From the NCBI GenBank assembly GCA_916048095.2, contig OU696586.1:6521249-6585248 (forward strand): a stretch of DNA of 64,000 nucleotides. Reading direction: 5' to 3'. The notes under the pieces are model-generated. The model was not told the origin of the DNA and did not search any database. It saw only the letters and a list, made by a program, of their open reading frames with translations. Made by a program: the position numbers and the translations under genes. This DNA comes from Sacculina carcini (taxonomy: Eukaryota > Arthropoda > Thecostraca > Sacculinidae). This document shows positions 18,479 through 40,171 of this stretch, one piece after another. Within the stretch, counting starts at the first letter, position 1, and the number at the start of each line of letters is the position of its first letter.

Positions 18479-18729
18479 GTAGGGACGCCTACAAAAGTAA
18501 AATAATGGCAAACGGCCTCAGCGATCAAAACCCGTGCGTACGGTAAGACTCGTGTGTGTATTGCTTGCGCCACCGATGCATAATATACAATTTAACATGT
18601 AGCAGATCGAGCACATACATATTTATATATAACATGATGCGATATAATGTGATGATCAAATGAATACATAATAATAGCAATGACAATAAAATAAAGATGA
18701 AATGCACTGATTGTGGCGCATCGGCTACA
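18479..18729 (-). repeat. Gypsy D 3' LTR
   Basis: A 251-bp LTR, TGTAGCCGATG..CCCTACA on the minus strand. A G-rich polypurine tract (CTGGGGGATAGC) immediately precedes it on that strand. Confidence 0.92.
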
Positions 18730-22801: not shown

Positions 22802-22867
22802 TGTAGGGACGCCTACAAAAGTAAAATAATGGCAAACGGCCTCAGCGATCAAAACCCGTGCGTACGG
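22802..22867 (-). repeat. Gypsy D 5' LTR, inner half
   Basis: Identical by eye to 18479-18544. It ends in ACGG (22864-22867), the target duplication of TIR-X. Confidence 0.92.
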
Positions 22868-22882
22868 TGTGACGGCCCAAGA
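22868..22882 (+). repeat. TIR-X left terminal inverted repeat
   Basis: TGTGACGGCCCAAGA, mirrored at 34384-34398. A nearby internal word, GGCCCAAGATGCGACCT, is repeated at 22875-22907 and, inverted, at about 25262-25340. Confidence 0.85.
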
Positions 22883-22884
22883 TG

Positions 22885-23137
22885 CGACCTGGCCCAAGAT
22901 GCGACCTCGACGCTTGCGACGCGTATAAGGCATTCAATGCCTCCTAGGGTCTGTTATTATCTGTTATGAAATTGCATTTGTTGTTTGAATAGTTTCTTGC
23001 TGTCATATTCTGAGTTCACATTGATTTAATAAGTCTTATTGGGGCCTATATTTACTTGAGTGCTTATTCTGGTGTCTTATTTTCGTTGCAGTGGAAGTTG
23101 TTTGGACCAATTCCATTGTTTGTTGTGTTTTGTTGTG
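22885..23137 (+). repeat. Inverted repeat arm, left
   Basis: 253 bases that match the reverse complement of 25030-25282 with about one difference. The sequence looks non-coding, like a LINE 3' UTR. The spacer between arms is 1.9 kb. Confidence 0.92.
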
Positions 23138-23450
23138 CGATTGATTCTGATAGCTGTTTGTTAATACCGCAGGTGATTAACTGGTTAAACTGATAAGCGC
23201 ACGTTTATTTTCTGCTGCCTGTTGTTTTCGGCAATCTTTTAGCTTTCTCATGTGTGCTTGATCTGGTTTTGATGTTTCTGTATATTGTGTGTGTATACGT
23301 GTTTGCTACATTTGATCCATTCTATTTATTCTTGCCGTTGATTATTTGTGCTCGCATATGTGGTTATATGCGCTATACGAAATATATTATTGCTTGATTG
23401 GTCTTGTTACTTTGTTGGTTAGTACACGAGTTAAACTGTTTTCCCTGGTG
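23138..23450 (+). other. Non-coding stretch resembling a LINE 3' end
   Basis: T-rich sequence with TATGCGCTATACGAAATATATTATTG near its end. This resembles the CGCTATA..AAAT 3' ends of the LINE copies at 26778-27240 and 58280. No gene seen. Confidence 0.4.
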
Positions 23451-23785
23451 GTTAATAGGTTAAATGCCTAAGTGACAGCTGCTACATGGGAAGAAGCCGA
23501 AGCTTATGAACACACAGGTGTGCCCCGTGCAGCTCGCTGCCACCGCATAACCGACCCTCTCCACGCTATGGCGCCACAAGGACGTAAGACGTATTAGAGA
23601 GGGCCACCTCCCGAGAATGCATGGCACAACCCATGACTGATATCTGGTACCATCATTTTCTGCTGGGTGGACAGGGGCTGTGGGATTGTAGAATTCGCCC
23701 AATGAAATTCTGCTCCGCCGGGTTTCGAACCACGGACCTCCCGCTTGTGAGGCGGGTGTGCTAACAACTGCACCACGGAGTCCAC
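23451..23785 (-). mobile_element. SINE-1a, tRNA-Val(CAC)-derived
   Basis: On the minus strand it begins with a tRNA-like head: GGACTCCGTGGTGCAGTTG (box A region), a CCCGC-CTCACAA-GCGGG anticodon arm with anticodon CAC, and box B GGTTCGAAACC (23721-23731). The body runs through a ~240-bp unrelated region to a 3' tail of TTTAACC-like units. It has a second copy at 41971-42310 about 95% alike by eye. SINEs are copied by LINE machinery. Confidence 0.88.
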
Positions 23786-23861
23786 AAAAGGGTGGTGGGC
23801 TATATGTTGGTCAAACGGTGACGTGATTGATACGAGTGTCGAGAAAGTATTTCTGTGCTGG

Positions 23862-23973
23862 CCGTGACTGCGAAAACCCGTGTGGCGGCCGGACCTGCGG
23901 TGTGCCAGCCGGGGCCGTGAGGCTTTGCCCCCGCAAAATTACACGCGAACATAGCCTTCTCTACTGATGTGTT
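23862..23973 (+). mobile_element. SINE-2 fragment, 3' body
   Basis: From GTGACTGCGAAAACCCGTG to CACGCGAACATAGCCTT it matches the 3' body of the SINE at 46688-46951 in the opposite orientation. The tRNA-like head is missing. Confidence 0.75.
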
Positions 23974-25029
23974 TAAATGCGTATGGTCAACAATCTATAT
24001 ATGGTCAATATGTGGACAAAGTAGGCTACGCACACTAAAAACTATTGAATTTCATGTAATTTAAAATCACTACTCTGGGGGATGTGAGGGTATATTTACA
24101 AACATCGCTGCCCTCTTCAATAATCAAACATCAGATTCTCCAGTGGGCGTCCAAGTTCAAACTGCATGGTTGGTATAACACTTGTTCAGCATCAACCAAT
24201 CTGATTCTACTCAGATTAGTGTTGAACACAATGTGTGTGTGTGTGTATGTGTATGCTCGAATTTCGTCCATGAGAAGCAGGTCACAGCGAGCAGCGTGGC
24301 AGCTATGAGACCCCGCCTCTGAGCGGATAATACTTTCCATGGTGAAGGGCAACCTGTAGTCATTGTGGACATGTACATCTGCATTCCACTCTGCTAGCCC
24401 CGTGGCAGAACTAGATTTGATTTAGTAAGAAATGGTGATGCTTTGATTGTAAGCCGAGCTGTAAATCAGCCATGCATTCTCAGAAAACAGTCACTCAAGA
24501 GACACTTCGACAGTCAACAATGAACTAAATAATTGCAGAAGAATCTAAGGATGAACCAAGCCTGTGGGTCACTACAAATGACCCCTATGTGAATGCACGT
24601 GTACACCTACATACATTTAAAACGTGTTTAGGTAGCTTCGATTCGTTTAGTTCGATTCGTTTGTATTCGTCTTCGATTAGTTTTTCTTAAATATGCACAT
24701 GCTCACGCGTAGAAAAACAAACCACCGATCAACGATTTTATTCGGTTTAATTGCCAAACAAAACTCGTAGAAATAGTCAGAAATACAGGACTGACAACAT
24801 AAGAGATGAAAAGGAGGAAAAACGAAAACAGATGGAGCATGCAATGAACACATGTGGAGAACACGCTCAAAACGAAATTCCCAAGAAACTCATGTTTGGG
24901 GCCTACAATACGACTACACCACAAACACAAAGACAAATACGCACAAAGACAAAAATCGTTCACAAAGACAAATATCACCTAGATAATAGCTCAACGTCTG
25001 CAGCTATTTTCCTGAACAGATACCATTCC
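23974..25029. other. Unassigned spacer between inverted arms
   Basis: AT-rich and non-coding. It holds a short (GT)n run at about 24234-24250 and TTCGATTCGTT short repeats at about 24636-24680. Open frames here are not supported by any recognisable protein. Confidence 0.5.
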
Positions 25030-25282
25030 CACAACAAAACACAACAAACAATGGAATTGGTCCAAACAACTTCCACTGCAACGAAAATAAGACACCAGAA
25101 TAAGCACTCAAGTAAATATAGGCCCCAATAAGACTTATTAAATCAATGTGAACTCAGAATATGACAGCAAGAAACTATTCAAACAACAAATGCAATTTCA
25201 TAACAGATAATAACAGACCCTAGGAGGCATTGAATGCCTTATACGCGTCGCAAGCGTCGAGGCCGCATCTTGGGCCAGGTCG
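25030..25282 (-). repeat. Inverted repeat arm, right
   Basis: Reverse complement of 22885-23137. Beyond it the outer flank carries two more GGTCGCATCTTGGGCC words, related to the terminal repeats of TIR-X. Confidence 0.92.
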
Positions 25283-25374
25283 TTGCAAAGGCTAACCCTC
25301 AACTTTTCATCTGATCTGAGGTCGCATCTTGGGCCGAGGTCTATACAAATATCATAATCCCAAACTCTGTAATG

Positions 25375-25425
25375 TGACGTCAGACTGATGATGGTGGTGA
25401 CGTCATGCAAATGACTATGACGTCA
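25375..25425. promoter_or_regulatory. Cluster of three TGACGTCA (CRE-type) palindromes
   Basis: Perfect TGACGTCA octamers at 25375-25382, 25398-25405 and 25418-25425. The same octamer occurs near the right end of TIR-X at 34327-34334. CREB/ATF proteins bind this site in animals. Any function here is unknown. Confidence 0.45.
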
Positions 25426-25547
25426 ATAATTTTTTAGTTGGCAGCATTTGAAATATATTCTACCAAATAGTTGAAGTTCCCGCGCGATCACTTGTGTCTT
25501 ACCATGTGAATCTGATTGGTTGCTGTTTCCTGTTTGATTGTTATTAT

Positions 25548-26769
25548 TAGGGCTGTCAAAAAAGTAACCTAAAAATCAGAAAAAAGTAACTTTATTTTCG
25601 AGAAAAAGTAACCTAAAAAAGTAACCTAAAAATAACCTGAGTTTTAAAGTTATTATCACTTTTGTATCGTTTTATCACATGTTTATCATGCCTTTGCTGA
25701 TCAGTGCGCTATATGAAATACACGGTTTATTTGTTGTTTGTTTGTGAACATATAAAGTAACCTAATAACCAATAAAAAGGTAACCTAAAAATAACCTCCT
25801 TCAAAAAAGGTCAATTTCTGTTTGCAGTTCTGAAGGAAGAAAATACACTAGTCCTTCTTTTCTATCCTCTTTCCGAGTTGGTACTACTTTTCCACCCTCT
25901 CCGATCTGGTACCATTTTTACAACAAACAACCAAAAGTGACTTAACATAATTTAGCTAACATCGAAAAAGGGAGCATAACCATCAAAATATAATTTTAAG
26001 TGGAAAGCTCATACAAATGCGAAATACACTAATTGCAAATGTAAATATTTTTAGTAATGGTCGCAATAATGTTCTTTATATTTTTTAATGGAACTTTTTA
26101 TCAAATAGCACGTACTACAGTAGCGTAAACACTGCATGTGTGAATGCCCCCCGTCCTCCCATATGTCAAACGTGGGATAATGGCGCTATCTCACGCCCTG
26201 AAAATCACTTGCAAATTCCTGTTAAAGTAAATACGTACTGTCAAGTGCTACAGTGCAGTATCTGGTATAGAGAGCTCACACATCGTACTATACCACGCTC
26301 CAAACATCTCACGACACCCTCCGGTTCGTGGACATTTACTAAAATGGAATTACACTTTCCTGCGTACCCAAAAACGTATAAATATCGAGTAGCACGGATA
26401 TTAAGATGAATATCAATTGCTAAATCCTAACAGTAGAAATGTTGACATTTCTTGATCTTCAGACCTAATATTCCATCTCTTTTCCTATTTTATCGTCATA
26501 TATACCGTATTTGTGCCTCTTATCTGCAAAAAGTCACCAAACTTCGTGGTTAACTTACCTAATAACAAGAAAAATAACAAAAGGTAACCTGACGATAAAA
26601 AAGTAACCTTAAAAGCAAAAAAGTAACCTAACGATGAAAAAGTAACTTTTGGTAACCTAATAACTTTTTTAATAATTATGGTACACAACTTTTTCATGCA
26701 GTTTTAGGTAGCTTATGAAAAAGTGACCTTTAGATGAAAAAGTAACTTTATTAACTTTTGGCAGCCCTA
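25548..26769. mobile_element. hAT-superfamily MITE, 1.2 kb
   Basis: Ends TAGGGCTGTC and GGCAGCCCTA, with an 8-bp TSD, GTTATTAT (25540-25547, 26770-26777), as made by hAT transposases. Many AAAGTAACCT-type repeats lie within about 250 bp of both ends; such subterminal repeats are typical transposase-binding sites. The 1.2-kb interior has no transposase frame, so it is non-autonomous. Confidence 0.9.
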
Positions 26770-26777
26770 GTTATTAT

Positions 26778-27240
26778 CAATACTCCTAATTTCTAATTTC
26801 ATGTGTTTGCGGTGATTGATTTGTGACTCACTATCTATCCCGTTTTGGTGGGTGCTTGTGTTCCACTGACTGGTTGGTTGTAACAAAGTTTCAGTCTGAC
26901 CAGATTTTCTCTTTCTTCATTTGCTTTGTGTTGAGTTTCCATAGATGAGCTTAGCAGTTATAATTAACATTGCGATGTGCGTGTTTACATCCGAAATGCT
27001 GTGTGTAGACTAACAATATGCATGTGTTCTTCTCATTGTGTAAATGTGTTCATTGCGTTATTTGAATAGTGTAATATTTATTCATTCGTGTGTTCTTTTT
27101 ATTGTTTCCGTAATTGTATTTATAGCTTGTTTTCTTTTTATTGTAACTGTTTTAGCTTTGTCCGCTTGTTCATACTGTTTAGCTGCCGCGCGCCCGTGTA
27201 TGACAGGCGCTATAACAAATGCACTGAACTGAACTGAACT
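26778..27240 (+). mobile_element. LINE 3' UTR remnant ending in (TGAAC)n
   Basis: A non-coding, T-rich tail ending CGCTATAACAAATGCACTGAACTGAACTGAACT. Short tandem repeats right after a CGCTATA..AAAT block also end the LINE at 58280-58306. With 25290-25547 it formed one unit before the hAT insertion. No coding part remains. Confidence 0.5.
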
Positions 27241-27261
27241 AGTTCGTAAATTTCTTTTAAG

Positions 27262-27490
27262 TCTGACTGATTTAAAAGATTGAGTATGTGCATGTGCATA
27301 GGTGTGGGTGTTACATTGTCTGAATCAGTATAGTGCTACTAGGATTGACTGATTTAGGGGCTGTGTACGTGCATTCGCATAGGTATACTTGTGTTACATT
27401 GCCCGAAATGTTATGCTTTTGAGCTTGAGTGATTGTAAAATTATGTGCGTACATGTGCGTAGGTGTATGTGGGTTACATGGGCTACATAT
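27262..27490. repeat. Degenerate tandem repeat, about three units of ~78 bp
   Basis: Three related units each carry GTGCATAGGTGT..GTTACAT-like cores (about 27295, 27375 and 27458). Diverged and non-coding. Confidence 0.55.
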
Positions 27491-27639
27491 ATATGTCAGA
27501 CAGCATACACAACAAATCCATACATTCAATTTAAATAAACATGGACGCACAGACGATTGGAAGCGATGAGTTGAAGAGTTAAGAGCACAAGAAATAGTAA
27601 ATACATCCTCAAACATCCTTCATCCAATTTAGCATGGTC

Positions 27640-29770
27640 AGATGCAGGCGTTATGCAAATGTCTAGTTGTTTTATTATTTTTATTTTGTGAGTCGACAGG
27701 AACCTGGCTGGAGTTATCATCTTTCTCATCTGATTGTCCTTCTTTTGTCGCCGTCCGAAGTAGTATTCGTTCCCGCACTGCCACTTCCTCCTCTTTCACT
27801 TGTCCCACTAGCTCTCGTCAAACTTCTGCCTGACATCCTGTCGCCCCTCGTGTCTCCGTTTCGCGCTCATCACTCCCGTTTGGTCTTATAAATATCCGCT
27901 CTTGTCGCTATAAGTTTGATTTCGTCTCCTGTCTTTGTTCTTTTCATCATTTATCGTTCTTATGGTTGGTTGAAACTTGGCTTTTCGATACTGACGTTGC
28001 GACTTTTTCTGCTCAGCTTCCTCCGTCCTACAAATTTCTCCACTCTTCCCGCTCACTTTCTAGCAAGTCCTGTGGTGGTGGTATTGGCATCGTTTATCAC
28101 AAGTCCCTCTCCTTTTCTTTAATTGATTCCTTTACTTCCGTTTTTAGTTCGTTTGAATGTCTACCTATCTGTTTATCTGTTCCGTCTCATCCTAAGGTCT
28201 GTATTTTGATTGTTTATCGTCACAACCACCCTGGTACTGCATCTGTTTTCGCTACTGAGTTCTCTGATGTTCTAGATTCCATTATTTCTTTATTCTCGAA
28301 TCGCTTTAACGTTCTTGGTGATTTTAATTTTTGGGTTGATGCTCCTCGTTTGTCGCCTTATGCCTGTAACTTTATCTCACTCATTGAATCATATGGTCTT
28401 GTTTCTCTTGTTTCTTCCCCTACTCATCAGTCTGATCAAACTCTTGATCTCGTTTTGTTTCCTGTCCCTGTCTTACCCTCTGACATCGCCATAGCTGAAG
28501 TTCGTGTTCATCCTCCAGATTCTTCAATCTCTGATCATAGTTTTCTCCTCTCTGAACTCTCACTCTCGCCTAATCCTTCTTCCCCATCTGTGTCTATCCC
28601 ATTTCGCTCCTTTCGCAATTTCGACCCTACTCAGTTTTCTGCTCTTCTTGTATCTCATCTGCCGATCCAGCTGCTACACTCCGTTCCTGATGTCTATCCC
28701 TTTTTTTCCGGTACTCTTTCTGTAGTTAATGACGCCTTGTTTCCTCTCCTGTCTCGCTCAAGTAAATCCTCCTCCTCATCTCCTTGGTCTTCTGGTCTGT
28801 CAGCTCTTAAACGTGATCAGCGTCGTCTGGAGCGGCGCTGGAGACATTCTCCCTCTTTTATTTCATGGTCCTCGTATTCTGCTGCTCGTTCGTCTTATAT
28901 CTCTGCTCTGGCTCTGGCCAAACAATCCTACTATACTAGACGTTTATCCTCCCTGTCTCGCTCTCCTAAAATGCTTTGGTGCACTCTGAACTCTCTCCGC
29001 GGTTCTAATTTATCTACTTCCTGTCTGATCTCGGCTGAGGAATTCGCTACTTTCTTCTTGGATAAGCTTCACATCGTCTCCTCAAGTCTTCCTGTCTGTT
29101 CTTTACCTGTCACTCATTCTAGTCCCTGTGGTGAATTCTCCTCGTTTTCCCAACTCGTTCTTACTGATGTTTGTAAGCCCATTTCCTCTTCTGAAAAATC
29201 CTCTTCCCCGGCTGATCCTTTGAATAACCGTGCTTTCTCCGACTCCATACTTCTTCTTGCTCCTTATTTCCTACATGTCATCAATTCCTCTTTTCTTCAT
29301 GGTTCATTCCTTACCGATAAGCACGCTATCATTCGTCCATTACTAAAGAAACCTTCACTTGATACATCCGTCATGAAAAATTATCGTCCTGTGTCTCTCC
29401 TCAGTTTTCCGTCTAAACTCCTTGAGTCTGCTATCTACTCTCAACTGTCTCCTTTTCTAAATCAATCACTTTTCTCCGCTCAGTCTGGATTTCGGCCTTC
29501 TCATTCTACTGAGTCTGTGTCTATTTCTATCCTTGATCACATTTTCTCTCACTTTGCTTTGGGTCGCTCTGTCCTTCTTGTACTACTAGACATGTCCTCT
29601 GCTTTTTGATCTCGTTGACCACTCTATTCTCATTGCCGATCTGTATTCTCTTGGTATTTCTTCATCCACCCTTTCTCTCCTCAAATCTTATCTCACCAAT
29701 CGAATCTATTCTGTGAATATCAATTATCTCTCTTCTGTGTTTCCTCTGTGTTCTGGTGTCCTATTGCTAT
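27640..29770 (+). mobile_element. LINE E, CR1/L2-type, truncated at both ends
   Basis: It starts within the end of ORF1 (DCPSFVAVRSSIRSRT, matching CPSFVAVKNSIRQRT of LINE F at 53777-58306) and runs through the endonuclease into the start of reverse transcriptase. It stops near 29765, where sequence related to the downstream satellite begins. Strongly pyrimidine-rich on the plus strand, like LINE F. It lies inside TIR-X. Confidence 0.85.
27966..29765 (+). pseudogene. LINE E ORF2 (endonuclease plus start of RT), broken
   Basis: The visible frame starts at 27966, although homology begins further upstream. APE-type endonuclease landmarks: GGGIGIVYHKS, ILIVYRHNHPG, VLGDFNFWVD (about residue 118) and ISDHSFLL (about 190). 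RT begins with IIRPLLKKPSLD, KNYRPVSLLSFPSKLLES, QSGFRPSHSTE and LLVLLDMSSAF. One extra T at about 29604-29609 shifts the frame after SSAF. The homology then continues for about 50 residues (DLVDHSIL..) and ends, so the RT catalytic YADD is missing. Confidence 0.85.
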
Positions 29771-30510
29771 ATGCTTGTGTATATCACAACGTTTGGTGGC
29801 CTATGTGCCAAGCTGTGTCTGTGTTATGTGACTTTTGCTGTTGTGCTATGGTGTTTTTTGTTTTGTGGTTTTGTTGTGCGATTTGTGGTGTATTTTGCCT
29901 TGTGATTTCCTCTGCTTCTTTTTTATGTCATATTCTCTCTCAATCATTGGTTTGTTGGTAATATGAAATGTGTTCGGTGTCTTGGTATATTTATCGTTGC
30001 ATTGTTATTCTGAGTTTTCCAGCGAACAAGGACCTGATCTGAGGGACTCTACGGTTTTCAACACTGCTCTGGGCGTTTGTACGAGTACGGGCGGTGCATA
30101 TGTAGTGGCTTCAATTGATTAGTTTTTGTATATGACTACTGTTTATTCCGGCAATCACTTTATATATGTCCCTTTCCACTTCATATATGTTCATGTCCTA
30201 TTACTGTCGTTTCATTTAATCTTCCTGTTATACATCGCACAGCATCACGTGTTTTGTGTCCTGTGTTTTTTCATGTGTTGTGGCCTCTCGAGCAAATTTC
30301 TCTCCTCATGTCGCTTTTCATTAGTTTATTATTTTCTTATTTCTGCTCTTATGTAATCTTTCCAGTTTCTGTGAGCACGTGTTTGTGTTTTGTGTTGTTT
30401 TGTGTAATTGTCTCGTGACTTGTATTTTGTGTTGTGACTTCGTGTTATATGGTTTTTTCTTTTCTCTCTTGTGGTCTCTTGATTAGTTTTCTTTTTCAGT
30501 CTCCAGTGAG
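29771..30510. other. Non-coding T-rich stretch between LINE E and the satellite
   Basis: At 29774-29825 it carries one diverged copy of the satellite core (CTTGTGTATATCACAACGTT..GTGCCAAGCT). The rest is T-rich and unassigned. Confidence 0.55.
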
Positions 30511-32460
30511 TGAGTGAATCTTGTCTTTATCAGATCTTGCACATAGTAGTAAGGCCATGCGTTGTCGCTTGTGTATATCACAACGTTTGACGAACTAAGT
30601 GCCAAGCTATGTGTCTGGTCTACCTCTGTGTGAATTTGGTCGTGTTCTCTTCTGGATTTTTAGTTTTGAGTGATCTTGCACATAGTAGTAAGGCCATGCG
30701 TTGTCGCTTGTGTATATCACAACGTTTGACGAACTAAGTGCCAAGCTATGTGTCTGGTCTACCTCTGTGTGAATTGTGTCGTGTTCTCTTCTGGTTGTTT
30801 AGTTTTGAGTGAATCTTGTCTTTATCAGATCTTGCACATAGTAGTAAGGCCATGCGTTGTCGCTTGTGTATATCACAACGTTTGACGAACTAAGTGCCAA
30901 GCTATGTGTCTGGTCTATTTCTGTGTAAATTATGTCGTGTTCTCTTCTAGTTGTCTATTTTAGAGTGAATCTTGTCTTTATCAGATCTTGCACATAGTAG
31001 TAAGGCCATGCGTTGTCGCTTGTGTATATCACAACGTTTGACGAACTAAGTGCCAAGCTATGTGTCTGGTCTATTTCTGTGTGAGTTGTGTCGTGTTCTC
31101 TTCTGGCTGTTTAGTTTTGAGTGAATCTTGTCTTCTCTATCAGATCTTGCACATAGTAGTAAGGCCATGCGTTGTCGCTTGTGTATATCACAACGTTTGA
31201 CGAACTAAGTGCCAAGCTATGTGTCTGGTCTATTTCTGTGTAAATTATGTCGTGTTCTCTTCTAGTTGTCTATTTTAGAGTGAATCTTGTCTTTATCAGA
31301 TCTTGCACATAGTAGTAAGGCCATGCGTTGTCGCTTGTGTATATCACAACGTTTGACGAACTAAGTGCCAAGCTATGTGTCTGGTCTATTTCTGTGTGAG
31401 TTGTGTCGTGTTCTCTTCTGGCTGTTTAGTTTTGAGTGAATCTTGTCTTCTCTATCAGATCTTGCACATAGTAGTAAGGCCATGCGTTGTCGCTTGTGTA
31501 TATCACAACGTTTGACGAACTAAGTGCCAAGCTATGTGTCTGGTCTATTTCTGTGTAAATTATGTCGTGTTCTCTTCTAGTTGTCTATTTTAGAGTGAAT
31601 CTTGTCTTTATCAGATCTTGCACATAGTAGTAAGGCCATGCGTTGTCGCTTGTGTATATCACAACGTTTGACGAACTAAGTGCCAAGCTATGTGTCTGGT
31701 CTATTTCTGTGTGAGTTGTGTCGTGTTCTCTTCTGGCTGTTTAGTTTTGAGTGAATCTTGTCTTCTCTATCAGATCTTGCACATAGTAGTAAGGCCATGC
31801 GTTGTCGCTTGTGTATATCACAACGTTTGACGAACTAAGTGCCAAGCTATGTGTCTGGTCTATTTCTGTGTGAGTTGTGTCGTGTTCTCTTCTGGTTGTC
31901 TATTTTTGAGTGAATCTTGTCTTCTCTATCAGATCTTGCACATAGTAGTAAGGCCATGCGTTGTCGCTTGTGTATATCACAACGTTTGACGAACTAAGTG
32001 CCAAGCTATGTGTCTGGTCTATTTCTGTGTGAGTTGTGTCGTGTTCTCTTCTGGTTGTCTATTTTAGAGTGAATCTTGTCTTCTCTATCAGATCTTGCAC
32101 ATAGTAGTAAGGCCATGCGTTGTCGCTTGTGTATATCACAACGTTTGACGAACTAAGTGCCAAGCTATGTGTCTGGTCTATTTCTGTGTAAATTATGTCG
32201 TGTTCTCTTCTGGTTGTCTATTTTAGAGTGAATCTTGTCTTCTCTATCAGATCTTGCACATAGTAGTAAGGCCATGCGTTGTAGCTTGTGTATATCACAA
32301 CGTTTGACGAACTAAGTGCCAAGCTATGTGTCTGGTCTATTTCTGTGTGAATTGTGTCGTGTTCTCTTCTGATTGTCTATTATCTGAAGCTATGTGTCTG
32401 ATCTACCTCTGTGTGAATTGTGTTGTGTCTTGTGTTCTCTACTGCTGGTCTAGTTTTCAG
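30511..32460. repeat. Satellite array, ~12 units of ~157 bp with dimeric higher-order repeat
   Basis: The core GCGTTGTCGCTTGTGTATAT recurs at about 30559, 30697, 30854, 31010, 31168, 31325, 31483, 31638, 31798, 31957, 32116 and 32276. Most spacings are 155-160; the first is 138. From 30854 to 31798 two unit types alternate: A with GTAAATTATGTCG and TTTAGAGTG, and B with GTGAGTTGTGTCG and TTTTGAGTG. This gives three ~315-bp dimers. A partial unit ends the array. Confidence 0.95.
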
Positions 32461-34383
32461 TTGAAACTTTTCTAGTTCTTCTTGATGGGATGTCTTTCTT
32501 TTCGACCCCATGCTTGATTTAGCATTTCATTCAGCATTCCTACTAAACATTTGTTTCCTATTTTGTATTAGTTATTTCCTTTTGTTTCACTTTTTCCATT
32601 TTCTACATCATGGATGCCATTGTTTTTGCATGATTGCCTTTGGAGTTTTGTTGTGTGATTTTATTATTGATAAGGTTCTACGTGCGATTATTTTTTTGTT
32701 TATCGGTTGTTGAATCGGGAAAATATATTTCAACTAGGGGTTAGGCTAAAACATCAATGTGGTTCATTGGATGTCTTAGCTTAACCTATGTGTCTTTCTC
32801 TATCAATATGATCCATGATTTGATTGAAGACGGTATAAAATCTGTGATGAGTAGTGCTCAGACAAGATGTTAAAGTCCTAAAGGAGCCAATGTGACTATT
32901 AGTTGGACTGTTGAGAGTGCCCTCTATATATCTATGAGAAATGAACTATTAAGCGATCTTTCCAAATTTGTGTGCAATACATTTAGCGCGTAATATAGCT
33001 ACAAATGAAGTTGTCTATAATGTTAGAAATGGAATTGTTAGCGATCTGCTTTTGTACAATTTGTTCAACCAGAAATAAAGTATTCTCCATATAGATATTC
33101 TCCACAATTTATTCAACCCGAAATATAGTATTCTCCATATAGAGTTGAATTGAGCGATCTACTTTCTCGCATTTTTGTACAGTACACAAGTTTGTCAAAT
33201 GAAATCCAGTGTAGCATTGTGTTTCCATCATACAACATTTTGTGCCGCGCATACAGGGACACGGCAGAACTTGCACAGCTCTAACGTTTTGAGTGTATGG
33301 ATATATGATTTTCCTGCAAAACAAAAAGCTGGGAGGAATAAACATGACATATTTGCATCAACTCTGTTGTTTCCCTCCAACTAGTTTCGCACGTCTCGTC
33401 GATTAATCTACGGATTGTTATACTCTGATATTGTACTAAGATCTAAGAATCTTCGTTGTGTTATAATGTTTGTAGGACATTCACGGAATAAAACCTGAGC
33501 AACATTGTCAACCTTGTGTTTGTGAAGGCTCCGGGATGACAGCCATCAATTGTGTTCAAGGATGACTCCCATAGTATGAGATGAGAGTATACGCAATAAA
33601 CTGGGGCTTTTTCTACGTTCGTTACGTATGTACGTTTCTACTGCAGCGAACGCAAATACGGTAGGAACACTACCCGTGTATTATCGCCATCTCTCTTGAC
33701 AAGCGAATGAATTCGGCACTGGTTGAGCTTACACGAACGCTAAACTATAGGTCGTTGACCCCGCCGGTCACGTGCGGTCACAATGCTCCCTGCGCCAGGC
33801 GCGTTGCTCAGGTTGTAGTATGCTCAGGTTTTACATCAAGGCTATACAACAATTACTAAAAGTCAATGTACGTACAATTATGCATATCATATCTGCACAT
33901 ATCTATGTATGCAGAATTCATAACAACAAATTTATTTTTTATAGCGCACACATTAATCAGAGGCGCGAAATGGTATAAAATAATTGGACGAAAGAAAACA
34001 AAATTAAGTAGCTCAGTACGATGCATGGATATGTAATCCGTATAGAATATGTGAGACTGAATGACACTGCCTGATTTTATATTGTGTTCTTATACTGTTC
34101 TATCTGCTAAGGAAATTATATGAATGAGAAAAACAATGAAATAACTAAATTTTCAAATGTGGAAATATAGCGAACAACTGGTAAGCCTACATTTATGGTA
34201 CGTCACTAAATAACTATGGTACGTAACTAAATAACTAAATTCTCAAATGTGGAAATATAGCGAAACTCTAGATAGCGAATAACTGGTAAGCCTACATTTA
34301 TGGTACGTCACTGTAAACGTCATCAGTGACGTCACGCTAAAGGAAAGAGTATGGGATAAATTTAGACATTGTGTCTCAACTTC
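32461..34383. other. Unassigned right part of TIR-X
   Basis: No recognisable gene. It holds an internal direct repeat around TATTCTCCATATAGA (about 33078-33145). A ~60-bp subterminal direct repeat, AAATGTGGAAATATAGCGAA..GGTAAGCCTACATTTATGG, occurs at about 34156-34206 and 34246-34310. A TGACGTCA site is at 34327-34334. Confidence 0.6.
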
Positions 34384-34398
34384 TCTTGGGCCGTCACA
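34384..34398 (-). repeat. TIR-X right terminal inverted repeat
   Basis: TCTTGGGCCGTCACA, the reverse complement of 22868-22882. It is followed by ACGG (34399-34402) and the resumed Gypsy D LTR. Confidence 0.85.
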
Positions 34399-34564
34399 AC
34401 GGTAAGTTGTTGTTGTTGTTTGAGAGAAGCGCTTCGGCCGGTGTCGGCCATTTCGCGCTGTACCACTTCCTAGTTTACTTCCTGCTGTATTGGCGTAATA
34501 CAAACACACTATTATGATTATTGCACGTCTCGCTGAAGCTCAGAAAAACTTGTTGCACCTCCCA

Positions 34565-37500
34565 TTAAAGCTTTGCAAACAAATCTATATCATAAAGGTA
34601 CTTGAGTAGTAGTCGAATCGCGTTCGGGTGGTCAGGATGTAAAATATTGATGAGATTAAAATGGATGTTTGTGGAGTGGCAGTAGGAACGTAAGGGTTGC
34701 CGCGAGACCTCATACAACTCGCATTCCGTGATTATATGAATACACGTGAGAGGAGTTCGACAGTGTGAGCATATAGGTGGAGATGTCTTCTCCAATAAAT
34801 AATTGTGTGTTATCCTAGTGCATCCCAGTCTTAGTCTCGCGATTACTCGCTGCGCTTTCCTTGGTAAATTGTCATCCAGCCATGGAGTGACTGATTTCTT
34901 TATGGCCCCAAGTGCATAATTATGTCTGTGACTGGTCCACTTTTGTTGGAAAGACTCGCATGTAGCCGTATTCACAATCTGTCTTATTGTCTGCTTACAC
35001 GCTGGATACTGGTGAATATCGCTCGATTCCAACGCAGCTTTTGCTTCCGCATCTGCCCTCTCATTGCCCTTCACGCCACAATGCCCTGGTATCCACACCA
35101 GTATACAGTCGGAGTTCGATGTTATACGATGTAAAATATTTAAAATTGATAAAAGTATAAAATCCGATGAAAGACTATTGGAAATGTAGACTAGTGCAGA
35201 TCTCGAATCACTCAGAATTAAAGTTTTTTGTACCCGATGCTCTTCCACGTATCTCAAAGCTCTGTATATTGCGTACAGCTCAGTATTGAAAACCGTGACA
35301 TATGAAGGCAGACGGAACCTTGATATGCACGCACTACCCTGATGTTTGGTGTATATTGCGCATCCTGACTTTCCTTTGCACTTTGATCCATCCGTATATA
35401 TTTGGGCATAGTCGCTATAATGCGAAATGTACTCCGCAAACGCCATTGAGACCTCAGTATCTGATACCTGCGCTTTGGTCGCATCCAGTAGGAAATGGAT
35501 TTTTGGAGCTGTCTTGTACCAGGGCGGTATGTCGTAGACTAGGCCATTTCGGTGAGGTACTGCCACATTGAGCTCCTGAATATACTCCCTCGCTCGTCTA
35601 TTAAGCATCCGTTTGGATAACTGCTTTCTGGAGGAAAAATTGGGCATGTTATCACCGATATTTGTATAAGGATGAGCGATGTGGTTATAGCTGGTGTGTA
35701 CTTTCAACGTGTAACGTAGCACGATATTCTTGCGTCGTGTGCTCAGTTCTGGAAAGCCGGTATACGCTCGCAGGGCCTCGACTGGTGTCGTTCTGTACGC
35801 ACCTGTTATCAGCCGAAGAGCCTCGTTTTGGATTGGTTCTAAAAGACTAAGAATGGAAGGGCTCGCCGATGAGTATGACTGTAGTCCATAGTCAAAAATC
35901 GATAAAATCAATGTTTTAAAAACCTTATGGAGAACGGAAACGCTCGCACCGGCGTGTTTATTCCCAGCTATAATACGTAATATGTTTAATCGCTTCTGAC
36001 AGCGCGCCTTCAAGTCTATTATATGTTCCCGCATGGTGAGTCTTTTATCCAGCACGATACCTAGAAACTTTTGTGATTGTCGGTACGGAATTATTTCGCC
36101 ACCCAACCTCAATGTTTCCTGAATTTTATAGCTGTCTATTGAGTATAGCACGGCCGTCGACTTCAGACCAGAAAACTTCATGTGGTTTGCTTTGGCCCAT
36201 AGTGCTAAAACATCTAGAGCTTCTTGAAGTTGAGCGCTCATGATAGCCACGTTTTCACCTTGAATCCAAATGGCGCTGTCATCGGCGTAAATCGCATATT
36301 GGATATTTGCTGGCATATCGCTGAACATATCATTCACCATCAAGTTGAATAGGATTGGCGACAGACAACTTCCTTGTGGTAACCCAATATCCATGCTATA
36401 CTGGTCCGAATATATGCCTGCGAGTCGTGTTCTAAAAAATCTCCTACCTGACAGAAAGTTTTTTATATATTCCGCCATATTACCCCTCAAGCCCATGTCG
36501 TGTATTTTTCGCAACAATATTCCCGGTATAACTGTATCATAAGCGTTGGTCAGATCTAGATATACGACCAGTGTACACTGCTTGTTGACAAAGCCCGTTC
36601 TTATTATATTTTCCAGCCTGACTACCGAGTCTACTGCCGATCGACTGGGACGAAATCCACTCTGATAGTGATCGAGCACATTGTTTGTCTCAAGAATGTA
36701 AGAAACTCTGGCTGTCACCATCCTCTCAAGAAGTTTTCCCATACAACTGGTCAAGGATATTGGTCGGTAGGACTTGGGAGAATCGCGGGGTTTTCCCTTC
36801 TTCAGAAGTGGTACAATTGTTGAGTGTTTCCATGATGCAGGATAAGAATGTGTTCTCCACAAGGAATTAAAAAATACTAAGACGTGATAAAAGGATTCAG
36901 ATGATATATGTCTTAAAAAATCGTAATGTATGTTGTCTGGTCCAACCGCCGTATGGCCTGATCGGTTGATCGCTCTTTTTAATTCCAGAGCTGTAAAATC
37001 GAGATTATATTCGTACATGGTGGGGTGATCGAAAGCGTTGTCTGGCAATTCAATCTCTAGCATTGCCGATGGTTCAATGCCGTGATATGCCTGAATACAA
37101 CTTGTTCTAGCCATATGTTCTGCTATTTTGTTGGCGACAACTTTTGGCTCGCTGATACGACTGCCCTCTATATTCAGGATTGGCATAGCTACTGGCGTCC
37201 AGCTGCCATTGAGTGCTCTGATCCCTCTCCAGATCGCTGATATAGGTGTCGATGGGGTAAAAGAGTCAATAAAATTATGCCATGCTAAAATCTTATTCCT
37301 CCTAATCACCCTCCTAGTGACGGCTCGCTCCCTACACAAGGCTATTTTCGCAGCTATCGTTTTAGTTCGCAGATAAAACCTAAGTGCTCTCTTTCGTTTT
37401 GCAACCGCACAACGGCATTCATTGTTGAACCATGGAACAGGTGTCTTTCTGGGTGGACGGCGTTTCCAAGGAATGGAGAGTCGAGCAGCAGAGATGATTT

Positions 37501-38320
37501 GACTTGTTATGCTGTCGGTGCTATTGTCGACGTCTATACCATCTACTCGATCCAAAACGCAGCATTGCCTGAAAAGAGACCAGTTTGCCTTGGCCATGTT
37601 CCATGTTGGTAGCCATTGTTGATGAGCAGACCTATCACCAGCTGACATTAAAATGGGGTAGTGGTCTGAATCTTGCGTATCTACGTGTACGGACCAATTC
37701 AACCACTGCGCTACTTCTGGTGAACAAATAGATAGGTCGATTGATGATGTATTAGCCGTAGAGATGTTAAAAAACGTGGAAGATCCGTCATTCAAGAGAG
37801 TCAGTGAGAAATTGGAGATAAAATTTTCTATTGACCTGCCCTTACATGTTGTACGGTTCGATCCCCAGGTAGTACTTTGCGCGTTAAAATCTCCTAAAAT
37901 AAGCATCCTGTTATTCAAAGACGCGTGAACTGTTTCAAGATGTCGTGTTATTGTTTCAGCTGTAGTATCTGGTGGCAGATACGTGCTTACTACATCAACA
38001 AGCCTGTGGTTGAGCCGCACTGTACACCCTACTGTGGCAATATCACTTGTCTGCATACTAATCGGACTCTGAGGGACACTATTGGCGATGTAAAGCGCTG
38101 CTCCACCTCGTCGTCGTCCATTTTGCACACAGTCATCGCGATATAACGTATAGCCGTGTATGTTGTAATTGTGTGTGTCTGTGGGCTTAAACCATGTCTC
38201 TTGTATAGCAATAACACTTGGTGATTGCGATGCAAGAAAATAAACGCTCTCTGCCCATTTCGATGGAAGACCTCTAGCGTTCCATTGAATGATAATCGTT
38301 TTATTTTCTTGTTGCGACAT
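34565..38320 (-). CDS. LINE G ORF2: endonuclease, reverse transcriptase, RNase H
   Basis: 1251 codons with no visible break. The protein nicks target DNA and copies the element RNA there (target-primed reverse transcription). APE endonuclease, residues ~1-230: IQWNARGLPSK, IQETWF, GDFNAQSTTWG, DSDHYPIL. RT, ~470-760: KSYRPISLTSCMGKLLERM, QSGFRPSRSAVD, VYLDLTNAYDTV, GLPQGSCLSPILFN and the catalytic YADD at about 678. RNase H, ~965-1090: YTDGSKCKGKSGCAIY, NTELYAI, LSDSRSAL, WIPGHCGVKGNERADAEA. A C-terminal zinc-like CSHC..HIITEC lies at about 1177. RNase H after RT points to the I superfamily. The start ATG at 38320 is 17 nt after the ORF1 stop. Confidence 0.95.
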   Translation of the reverse strand: MSQQENKTIIIQWNARGLPSKWAESVYFLASQSPSVIAIQETWFKPTDTHNYNIHGYTLYRDDCVQNGRRRGGAALYIANSVPQSPISMQTSDIATVGCTVRLNHRLVDVVSTYLPPDTTAETITRHLETVHASLNNRMLILGDFNAQSTTWGSNRTTCKGRSIENFISNFSLTLLNDGSSTFFNISTANTSSIDLSICSPEVAQWLNWSVHVDTQDSDHYPILMSAGDRSAHQQWLPTWNMAKANWSLFRQCCVLDRVDGIDVDNSTDSITSQIISAARLSIPWKRRPPRKTPVPWFNNECRCAVAKRKRALRFYLRTKTIAAKIALCRERAVTRRVIRRNKILAWHNFIDSFTPSTPISAIWRGIRALNGSWTPVAMPILNIEGSRISEPKVVANKIAEHMARTSCIQAYHGIEPSAMLEIELPDNAFDHPTMYEYNLDFTALELKRAINRSGHTAVGPDNIHYDFLRHISSESFYHVLVFFNSLWRTHSYPASWKHSTIVPLLKKGKPRDSPKSYRPISLTSCMGKLLERMVTARVSYILETNNVLDHYQSGFRPSRSAVDSVVRLENIIRTGFVNKQCTLVVYLDLTNAYDTVIPGILLRKIHDMGLRGNMAEYIKNFLSGRRFFRTRLAGIYSDQYSMDIGLPQGSCLSPILFNLMVNDMFSDMPANIQYAIYADDSAIWIQGENVAIMSAQLQEALDVLALWAKANHMKFSGLKSTAVLYSIDSYKIQETLRLGGEIIPYRQSQKFLGIVLDKRLTMREHIIDLKARCQKRLNILRIIAGNKHAGASVSVLHKVFKTLILSIFDYGLQSYSSASPSILSLLEPIQNEALRLITGAYRTTPVEALRAYTGFPELSTRRKNIVLRYTLKVHTSYNHIAHPYTNIGDNMPNFSSRKQLSKRMLNRRAREYIQELNVAVPHRNGLVYDIPPWYKTAPKIHFLLDATKAQVSDTEVSMAFAEYISHYSDYAQIYTDGSKCKGKSGCAIYTKHQGSACISRFRLPSYVTVFNTELYAIYRALRYVEEHRVQKTLILSDSRSALVYISNSLSSDFILLSILNILHRITSNSDCILVWIPGHCGVKGNERADAEAKAALESSDIHQYPACKQTIRQIVNTATCESFQQKWTSHRHNYALGAIKKSVTPWLDDNLPRKAQRVIARLRLGCTRITHNYLLEKTSPPICSHCRTPLTCIHIITECELYEVSRQPLRSYCHSTNIHFNLINILHPDHPNAIRLLLKYLYDIDLFAKL

Positions 38321-38337
38321 ATTTATCTACATCAATG

Positions 38338-39828
38338 TCAGCTTCTGACATGAGGCAGATTGTTTTGGGAGAATGAGTTGTGATTTGATTTTAAGTGTGA
38401 GTGTTCCTTTTTGTGTTGTAGTGTTTTCTGTTGATTCTGTGTGGTTTGTAATGTATTCTGAGTGGCTTGCATGTTTTGAGATGTTTTTGAAAGATGTGCA
38501 TCACTTTGCAGTGTTTTCTGATGATTTGTACAGTAGGAATGGTCTGCTGAGACATGTCGTTTCCGATCTATGTGTGTACGTGATATTTTTGTGTTCTCCA
38601 CTTCAGCTGATACTTGTGTGCTAGTCTCTTCTGTTTGCACCTCGCGATGGTTGTCATCACGCCTTGACAGTATTGTCAAAGGAGGTAGACCTGGAATTGG
38701 ATCAGTCTGTGTTGTTGAGTGCACCATTTGTGGTTTTTGTGTGTCACCTACTACCGCTGAGTAAGGTTTTCGCGAAGTGTTAGGTGAACTTTCAGCCTGC
38801 ATTTTTCGCGCTTCCTTGAAAGAAACATTGTGAATGGCCTTGATACGACAAATGTCTCTTTCCTGTTGCCATGTTGGACATTCATTGGACCCAGTTGTGT
38901 GTGTCTCACTTTTACAATTGTAACAGTGTTGTGGTCGCGAGCATGGACTGTCACTGTGCGCTGTTTCACCGCACCCGCTACACACTGGTTGTCTACGACA
39001 ATTGCGTGTGCCGTGACCATAGCTGTGGCAGTTGAAACAACGCATTGGTTTGGGAATATATACGCGTACCTCATACCGTATGAATCCTGCGTGTACATGT
39101 TCGGGGCGATTGGTTCTGTCAAAGGTCAAAATCAGCAAGTTAGTTGGCACGCGGTCCCCCGACCTGATCGTGCTTACACGGTACACCTCAGTTACTCCCT
39201 CACTCTCCATTCCGCTCTGTATCTCTGTCTCCGTGAGCTCACGCAATTCAGGGGCATAGATTAATCCTCTGCTGCTGTTTCTTCTCGAGTCTAGTTCGCT
39301 AGTCACGGGCTGTTGACAAAACTCCTTCAAACTCAGCAGTTTCCCTGTTTGTTTGGCATTGTGAGTCTTAATAATTATTGAGCCATCAAACAGTGTTTCA
39401 TATTTGAACATTTGGTTTCCAAGATGATATTTCAGCTCATTGCAGGGCCAGAACGGACCAATCTTGCGAAAAGAGAACGAATTGTTTGCTTTCAGCACTA
39501 CGTAAGATCCCTCTGGGTCAAATTGCTTAGCCTTACTTGTTGCCGGGTCATTTCGGATTCTAGTAGTCACCATACGTTCATTTGTGTTAGGCATCTGACA
39601 TTTCGTGATCTGGTTCGAAGCCGGGTCAGTTCCATTTGTTTGTTTCTTACGGTCATCCATTCGATTGAGAGTTTTCGGGTACGTAGTGGGTGCCGCGCCA
39701 ATTCCAGACCCCACTGATTCGTCACTCAATGAGGACTCCTCAGTAGAGTGTTTTCTCATTCTCCGTTTTTTTCGGGTTTTCCGGGGCCCAGGGGGTCCAG
39801 GGGACCCCCCCACAACCGGTTTGGGCAT
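38338..39828 (-). CDS. LINE G ORF1: RNA-binding protein with CCHC knuckles
   Basis: About 496 residues from the likely start, MPKPVVGGSPGPPGP. In this LINE group ORF1 proteins coat the element RNA. Three zinc knuckles lie in the middle: CFNCHSYGHGTRNC, CSGCGETAHSDSPC and CYNCKSETHTTGSNEC. Before them is an RRM-like segment (GSYVVLKANNSFSFRKIGPF). The C-terminal third is rich in Gln, Ser and Thr. The frame stays open upstream through the 5' UTR and into the Gypsy D LTR to 40149, but that part is outside the element (its 5' end is 39982) and is taken as chance. Confidence 0.9.
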   Translation of the reverse strand: MPKPVVGGSPGPPGPRKTRKKRRMRKHSTEESSLSDESVGSGIGAAPTTYPKTLNRMDDRKKQTNGTDPASNQITKCQMPNTNERMVTTRIRNDPATSKAKQFDPEGSYVVLKANNSFSFRKIGPFWPCNELKYHLGNQMFKYETLFDGSIIIKTHNAKQTGKLLSLKEFCQQPVTSELDSRRNSSRGLIYAPELRELTETEIQSGMESEGVTEVYRVSTIRSGDRVPTNLLILTFDRTNRPEHVHAGFIRYEVRVYIPKPMRCFNCHSYGHGTRNCRRQPVCSGCGETAHSDSPCSRPQHCYNCKSETHTTGSNECPTWQQERDICRIKAIHNVSFKEARKMQAESSPNTSRKPYSAVVGDTQKPQMVHSTTQTDPIPGLPPLTILSRRDDNHREVQTEETSTQVSAEVENTKISRTHIDRKRHVSADHSYCTNHQKTLQSDAHLSKTSQNMQATQNTLQTTQNQQKTLQHKKEHSHLKSNHNSFSQNNLPHVRS

Positions 39829-39989
39829 TGAGTACACCAGTCTATAGAAGATTGGAAATCTCTCACCGGGTTTGAAGTGAAGAAGAAAAAGAGGGCGTGT
39901 CGGTACAAATGCTGCGTCAAAGTCCACTGGAAGAAAGATCTTGACACCACCAAAGCACAAACACGAATGAACTCGTGTGACTCGGTAAG

Positions 39990-40171
39990 ACTCGTGTGTG
40001 TATTGCTTGCGCCACCGATGCATAATATACAATTTAACATGTAGCAGATCGAGCACATACATATTTATATATAACATGATGCGATATAATGTGATGATCA
40101 AATGAATACATAATAATAGCAATGACAATAAAATAAAGATGAAATGCACTGATTGTGGCGCATCGGCTACA
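39990..40171 (-). repeat. Gypsy D 5' LTR, outer half
   Basis: Identical by eye to 18548-18729. With 22802-22867 and 34403-34406 it completes the LTR. It is followed by TSD CCCT at 40172-40175. Confidence 0.92.

Follow-up and report, generated by a model that had tools for sequence, protein, structure and literature searches.

Ginger1 transposons are described as having TGTNR ends, terminal inverted repeats (TIRs) of 40-270 bp, and target duplications that are CCGG in 75% and CCGT/ACGG in 24% of cases, in the account of Bao, Kapitonov and Jurka (2010; PMC2836005). The IS481EU elements, reported from parabasalids, are given TG..CA ends and duplications of 4, 15 or 25 bp (PMC10045372). For Mutator-like elements (MULEs) the reported duplications are of 8-11 bp, usually 9 bp, and the TIRs may be long, short or absent (PMC6446971). 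Non-autonomous transposons that bear satellite sequence have also been described, namely the Tetris foldback element of Drosophila virilis (PMC4079207) and the Helentrons of oysters (PMC7492417). We have analyzed a stretch of 64,000 nucleotides of Sacculina carcini DNA (the window; assembly GCA_916048095.2, contig OU696586.1, here C21:6521249-6585248), in which a first-pass annotation had proposed a single 11.5-kb transposon, TIR-X, at positions 22868-34398 within a Gypsy D long terminal repeat (LTR). We conclude, with a probability of about 95%, that TIR-X is a nested stack of two separate elements and not one 11.5-kb element.

Results

The complete genome assembly of 264 Mb in 43 contigs was searched, and loci found in this way were fetched for comparison with the window. 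Of the numbered loci (L), L049 is the window itself, and L120 and L001-L008 lie outside the comparisons.

TIR-X starts at 22868 with TGTGACGGCCCAAGA and finishes at 34398 with the exact reverse complement of that sequence, flanked on both sides by ACGG; the 15-bp inverted ends and the 4-bp duplication had been described correctly. The right-hand 15 bp had been taken as the TIR of an 11.5-kb element, and this proves to be mistaken. The 9-bp sequence TCTTGGGCC is present as a target duplication at 25327-25335 and again at 34384-34392 (both forward strand), and between the two copies lies a Mutator-like element of 9,048 bp (25336-34383, forward strand), GAGGTCTATAC...GTCTCAACTTC, the ends of which recur genome-wide. 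To its left, 22868-25335 is all but the last 6 bp of a Ginger1-like, non-autonomous outer element on the forward strand, having a TGTGA end and the target duplication ACGG. The right TIR of this outer element continues to ...TCTTGGGCC at 25335, 6 bases before the expected GTCACA, and the missing 6 bp are found on the forward strand at 34393-34398, stranded past the inner insertion. When the inner element is left out, the outer element is 2,474 bp in length and terminates in GGGCCGTCACA. The right-hand mirror end is explained by the fact that the 9-bp duplication and the stranded 6 bp together make up the 15 bp with which the Ginger TIR ends. This division of 34384-34398 follows from the fact that 18 of 18 copies of the inner family examined have 9-10-bp duplications of their own (see below). 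The boundaries, duplications and repeat families of both elements are directly observed; they are two families, each repeated independently of the other, that differ in their ends and in the length of their duplications (4 bp versus 9 bp).

Across the genome the 15-mer end of the outer element has 155 exact occurrences, 69 of them forward and 86 reverse, while the reversed pattern, used as a control, does not occur. From the end places listed, which are part of the 155, we picked 36 pairs, deliberately including longer ones, and the window brings the number to 37. All 37 have a 4-bp duplication, containing CGG or CCG in 35; the types are ACGG/CCGT (23), CCGG (5), GCGG/CCGC (4), TCGG/CCGA (3), CATG (1) and ACGT (1). 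Twenty-eight are therefore of the CCGG or ACGG/CCGT types by which Ginger1 is recognized, with seven of the GCGG or TCGG types and two others. The duplication adjoins the standard end in 33 pairs, and lies one 8-bp unit farther out in the other 4, which are considered below. Both outer ends read TGTGA, in agreement with the TGTNR form of Ginger1 5′ termini, and the earlier suggestion that TG..CA ends and a 4-bp duplication are of Ginger type agrees with the Ginger1 signature as set out in PMC2836005. Paired ends with 4-bp duplications are common elsewhere in the genome, as had been anticipated for relatives of TIR-X, but most of those picked are short: 23 of the 36 pairs span 2.0-3.0 kb and 11 span 3.9-14.8 kb.

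The near-identity of the copies is evident from the interval 22868-25282 of the window (~2,415 bp), which matches five loci end to end at 98.6-99.4% (L028, L032, L038, L039, L045). These are uninterrupted 2.4-kb elements, with ends identical to those of the window copy. The left TIR arm of the window element (22885-23143, forward strand, 259 nt) is 99% complementary to the right arm (25024-25282, reverse strand), and the 259-nt arms plus the terminal 17 bp give a TIR of ~275 bp. In L023 the TIR reaches as much as 307 bp without a gap and with no more than 3 mismatches. Inverted arms and a satellite array had been listed as the cargo of TIR-X; both are present, but the arms are the TIRs of the outer 2.5-kb element.

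The inner family is characterized by the end pair GAGGTCTATAC/GAGGTTGAGAC, with ends GAGGT. The genome contains 42 matches to 25337-25536 and 68 to 34184-34383, the latter number including repeated sub-matches. All of the 21 inner left ends fetched, the window included, begin at one base with a G directly before it, which places the end at GAGGTCTATAC. Searches with the 17-bp ends returned 41 exact matches for each of the two ends, and a further 23 left and 19 right ends with one mismatch. Pairing was performed on all the exact ends together with 1 of the 23 and 3 of the 19 one-mismatch ends. Thirty-seven of these 42 left ends pair one-to-one with the 44 right ends, in matching orientation and 5,703-14,446 bp apart, leaving 5 left and 7 right ends unpaired. 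Four unpaired right ends stand in a row, 4.1-6.7 kb apart, at C35:3220108-3235155.

Target duplications were found in 18 of 18 inner copies (those of the window and of contig C20 included), being 9 bp in 16 copies and 10 bp in 2, and never 8 bp. As a control, none of 272 mismatched flank pairs has 8 bp or more in common. Right ends L084, L087 and L088, for which the set contained no left end, and left ends L057, L064 and L067, without a fetched right end, were left out of this test. Imperfect inverted ends were detected in L090, with a score of 51.6 over 70 bp compared with a maximum of 35.1 in 1,000 shuffles; the test is weak, as MULEs without TIRs exist. A related end type, GAGGTCTAGAC / GAGGTTCAGAC, was also observed, and includes a 10.4-kb pair on C7 (6662203-6672649); in a short member on C19 (L121) no matching duplication was seen by eye.

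Could TIR-X nevertheless be one element of 11,531 bp with 15-bp TIRs, moved whole by an integrase-type enzyme? Exact inverted ends between two copies of ACGG are what would be expected of it. However, the inner 9,048 bp has ends and 9-bp duplications of its own and forms a family apart, as does the left 2.4 kb, which is complete in itself, and a sum of 9 + 6 bp accounts for the whole of the 15 bp. The single-element reading, to which we attach a negligible probability, is refuted by the boundaries of the two families and by the 9-bp duplication. A variant of the nested reading accepts the same two insertions and supposes that the 11.5-kb composite is now movable as a unit by a Ginger enzyme, using the intact outer ends. 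Both outer termini are indeed intact to the last base, and four long pairs with intact ends (12.9-14.8 kb, on C6, C8, C2 and C20) have 4-bp duplications, although insertions made later into Ginger copies already in place would explain these equally well. The junction of the window is present in none of the 20 other inner left flanks (L050-L068, L086), nor in any other fetched locus. The C20 pair has a different junction: at C20:7262644-7275891 two Ginger ends with ACGT duplications lie 13,248 bp apart, and they enclose a 10,724-bp member of the inner family, duplication TCCTAGGGT, which has inserted into another Ginger copy than that of the window, and at another position. C20 is an independent replicate of the nesting, giving a false 13.2-kb 'element', and we regard movement of the composite as very improbable. 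The proposal that satellite and dead repeats travel as one unit holds for the inner 9,048-bp element with its retroelement fragment, and fails for the 11.5 kb.

The nested stack leaves a choice of superfamily for its inner member, which might belong to another group with 8-9-bp duplications, such as Merlin, and not be Mutator-like. Duplications of 8 or 9 bp are given for Merlin (PMC8101967), and there are 9 matches to Merlin-type DDE domains in the genome. The same source gives a conserved terminal GG, in contrast to the GAGGT ends found here. Moreover, duplications of 9-10 bp with none of 8 bp in 18 copies fit the 8-11 bp stated for MULEs (PMC6446971), and MULE domains are more numerous in the genome (52 matches). 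We consider a Merlin-like identity unlikely, and MULE-like to be the better label for the inner element.

The first-pass annotation supposed an enzyme acting in trans, and proposed that an integrase or transposase might be found among relatives of TIR-X. Of the 64 open frames of at least 130 aa in the larger Ginger loci, 48, from 14 loci, were compared with Pfam; 25 shorter pairs were left out. The domains found were reverse transcriptase (RT), RNase H, endonuclease, integrase, PHD and other zinc-binding domains, and the 11 longer pairs of 3.9-14.8 kb hold retroelement-type domains together with PHD and other zinc-binding domains. Four integrase cores occur among the 48 frames; all are in or beside RT/RNase H frames and so belong to retroelements, and no autonomous Ginger partner was found in the frames scanned. 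Two frames of the Ginger copy in the window gave no domain. A protein search with one LINE frame yielded 102 relatives, the majority of them unnamed. In the copies scanned, no integrase or transposase belonging to either element was found; action in trans we infer from termini and duplication lengths. On this basis both elements would be cut-and-paste passengers served by DDE enzymes encoded elsewhere. The outer element would need a Ginger1 integrase-like enzyme, and the inner one a MULE transposase, a domain class that is present in the genome (52 matches).

Several points weigh against the interpretation as a Ginger1-like element carrying a Mutator-like insertion. All the junctions are known from the assembly sequence alone. 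The inner right end in the window has one substitution (CAACTTC versus ACCTC in the other right ends read), and with one mismatch allowed, the reversed control was matched once in the search for each end. No transposase belonging to Ginger was found in the scanned frames, where a gene interrupted by introns would have escaped notice. None of the 52 genome matches to the MULE transposase (PF10551) lies inside any inner copy, one being located 18 kb from an unpaired inner left end, and none of the 9 IS1595/Merlin matches was seen by eye inside inner copies. The inner element works like a MULE and is a putative member, its identity being taken from ends and duplication length only.

In the order of events that we propose, a 2,474-bp Ginger1-like non-autonomous transposon inserted into ACGG of the Gypsy LTR, with duplication of ACGG. 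A 9,048-bp Mutator-like non-autonomous element then inserted 6 bp from the Ginger right end, with duplication of TCTTGGGCC; it brought with it a fragment of RT and an array of the ~159-bp satellite. The adjoining LTR site also contains a long interspersed nuclear element (LINE), which could have arrived before or after the Ginger element, as both orders fit.

The host LTR is more disrupted than had been thought. Its left part (22803-22867, forward strand, LTR positions 1-65) is 100% identical to 18479-18543 and ends with the ACGG duplication at 22864-22867. The match itself runs over 22803-22868 (positions 1-66 of 18479-18729), the 66th base being common by chance, and six other places in the genome are 100% identical to the 150 bp upstream of the insertion. 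The right copy of ACGG is at 34399-34402 (forward strand), and from ~34406 the sequence is a different genome repeat and not LTR. This repeat is the 5.6-kb LINE (34400-39989, reverse strand), with a 7-bp duplication CGGTAAG at 34400-34406 and 39983-39989; its body fills 34403-39982, between the Ginger end and the point where the LTR resumes. ORF2 (34568-38326, reverse strand) is a 1,253-aa frame with endonuclease, RT and RNase H domains, and a second frame of 547 aa (38341-39981) gave no Pfam match. The right part of the LTR (39983-40171, forward strand, 189 bp, LTR positions 63-251) is 100% identical to 18541-18729. The LTR halves were said to be separated by 11,531 bp, and removal of this sequence to restore the LTR. 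In fact the left half ends at 22867 and the right begins at 39983, and taking out the 11.5 kb would still leave the LTR interrupted by the LINE.

A further fragment is found in the right TIR of the outer element, where a 5′-truncated LINE tail of 36-37 bp (25283-25319, forward strand) has AGGTCG at 25277-25282 and 25319-25324. It matches the 3′ ends of LINEs in L010, L011, L012 and L017. Site-specific targeting of the Ginger TIR by this LINE was considered, as 6 of 6 places were at one spot in the TIR, but these loci had been chosen by their Ginger ends. Genome-wide there are 35 copies of the tail, and all their flanks were read; 9 (window included) adjoin a Ginger end and 26 do not, and on account of those 26 we reject site-specificity. 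More probably the tail was inserted long ago and has since travelled with the Ginger copies. The LINEs that adjoin a Ginger end at one place form a subset (L010, L011, L012, L017, L110, L111, L112 and the flank of L013).

We compared the interior of the inner element in the window with that of L089, L090, L091 and the C20 copy. All five have in common the initial 212 bp, a stretch that contains RT and varies in extent, another that precedes the array, the array itself and the final ~1.5 kb. The LINE-type RT fragment of the window (27834-29606, forward strand) has a 591-aa open frame with an RVT_1 domain and is partly present in other inner copies; segments homologous to it are found in the four other copies compared, with RVT_1 in L090. 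The satellite array (30672-32381, forward strand) has a unit of ~159 bp repeated ~10.8 times, and its length varies from ~3 to 15 units among inner copies. A 1,222-bp insert at 25548-26769, with inverted ends TAGGGCTG(T/C)CAAAA and an 8-bp duplication GTTATTAT, is present in the window copy only; it is missing from the other four, and the empty site was read. From its features we presume the insert to be hAT-like. It is rich in AAAAAGTAACCTAA-like motifs, and a similar stretch occurs in the flank of L027.

A 52-base piece of the satellite monomer has 381 matches in the genome with up to 2 mismatches. Among the first 100 of these, which are all exact and run from C1 to C12, 79 are within paired inner copies and 14 were placed by eye within or between ends that remain unpaired, 2 of them at C4 and 12 at C7, where the ends are 36.7 kb apart. 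The remaining 7, likewise placed by eye, are on C1, at 2.3-2.6 kb inward from right ends of the related subfamily. In these first 100 matches, every occurrence of the satellite is within or next to an inner-type or related element. Six right ends of the related type (GAGGTTCAGAC), each with satellite 2.3-2.6 kb inside, were observed on C1 at 1834358, 1963732, 2083390, 2233679, 2355841 and 2476750. Their spacing is roughly 120-150 kb, and they possibly represent a large tandem duplication.

The Ginger ends include their own preferred target, in TGTG-ACGG-CCC, and a Ginger end is the exact insertion site of L013. Beyond the standard end, 10 of 37 copies (L009-L014, L030, L035, L040, L042) have at least one additional TGTGACGG unit. 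In L009, L012, L035 and L040 the 4-bp duplication is seen only when one TGTGACGG unit is counted in; L040 is ambiguous, lying inside a TGTGACGG array. We tentatively suggest that Ginger ends may self-target, the enzyme using the outer unit as a new end and the termini lengthening in 8-bp steps, and that the inner Mutator-like family may be the main carrier of the ~159-bp satellite in the genome; we would not put these proposals as high as even odds. A literature search found no report of Ginger1 self-targeting or terminal growth, which is weak evidence of absence.

Discussion

The new class of 11.5-kb transposon that had been proposed can be set aside. The analysis illustrates a general trap, in which an insertion near a terminus leaves a duplication and a stub that together mimic a perfect inverted end. 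A later insertion can make a short transposon look long, as in the window and at C20. In place of TIR-X we have documented two families, one Mutator-like, apparently non-autonomous and bearing a satellite, the other Ginger1-like with near-identical copies, and through them the dispersal of a satellite by a DNA transposon can be traced copy by copy.

Ginger1 elements, MULEs and satellite-bearing non-autonomous transposons are already known. How closely do the two families resemble them? The outer family shares with Ginger1, as described in PMC2836005, its TGTGA termini and its CCGG and CCGT/ACGG duplications, with a TIR of ~275 bp against the published 40-270 bp. It differs in preferring ACGG/CCGT (23 of 37) over CCGG (5 of 37), where the published proportion of CCGG is 75%, and the scanned copies have no transposase of their own. 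The match is good in kind and different in proportions, and IS481EU, as characterized in PMC10045372, is a poorer fit. The inner family resembles the MULEs of PMC6446971 in its 9-10-bp duplications, its imperfect inverted ends and an interior of foreign origin, the RT fragment, and differs in that no MULE domain was found in any inner copy. Its satellite gave no arrays outside inner or related elements among the first 100 of 381 monomer matches. In being a non-autonomous transposon that spreads internal satellite-like tandem repeats, the inner element is like Tetris and the oyster Helentrons as these are presented in the reports cited above. It differs from them in its termini and its duplication, and the array is internal here, whereas in Tetris it lies in the TIRs.

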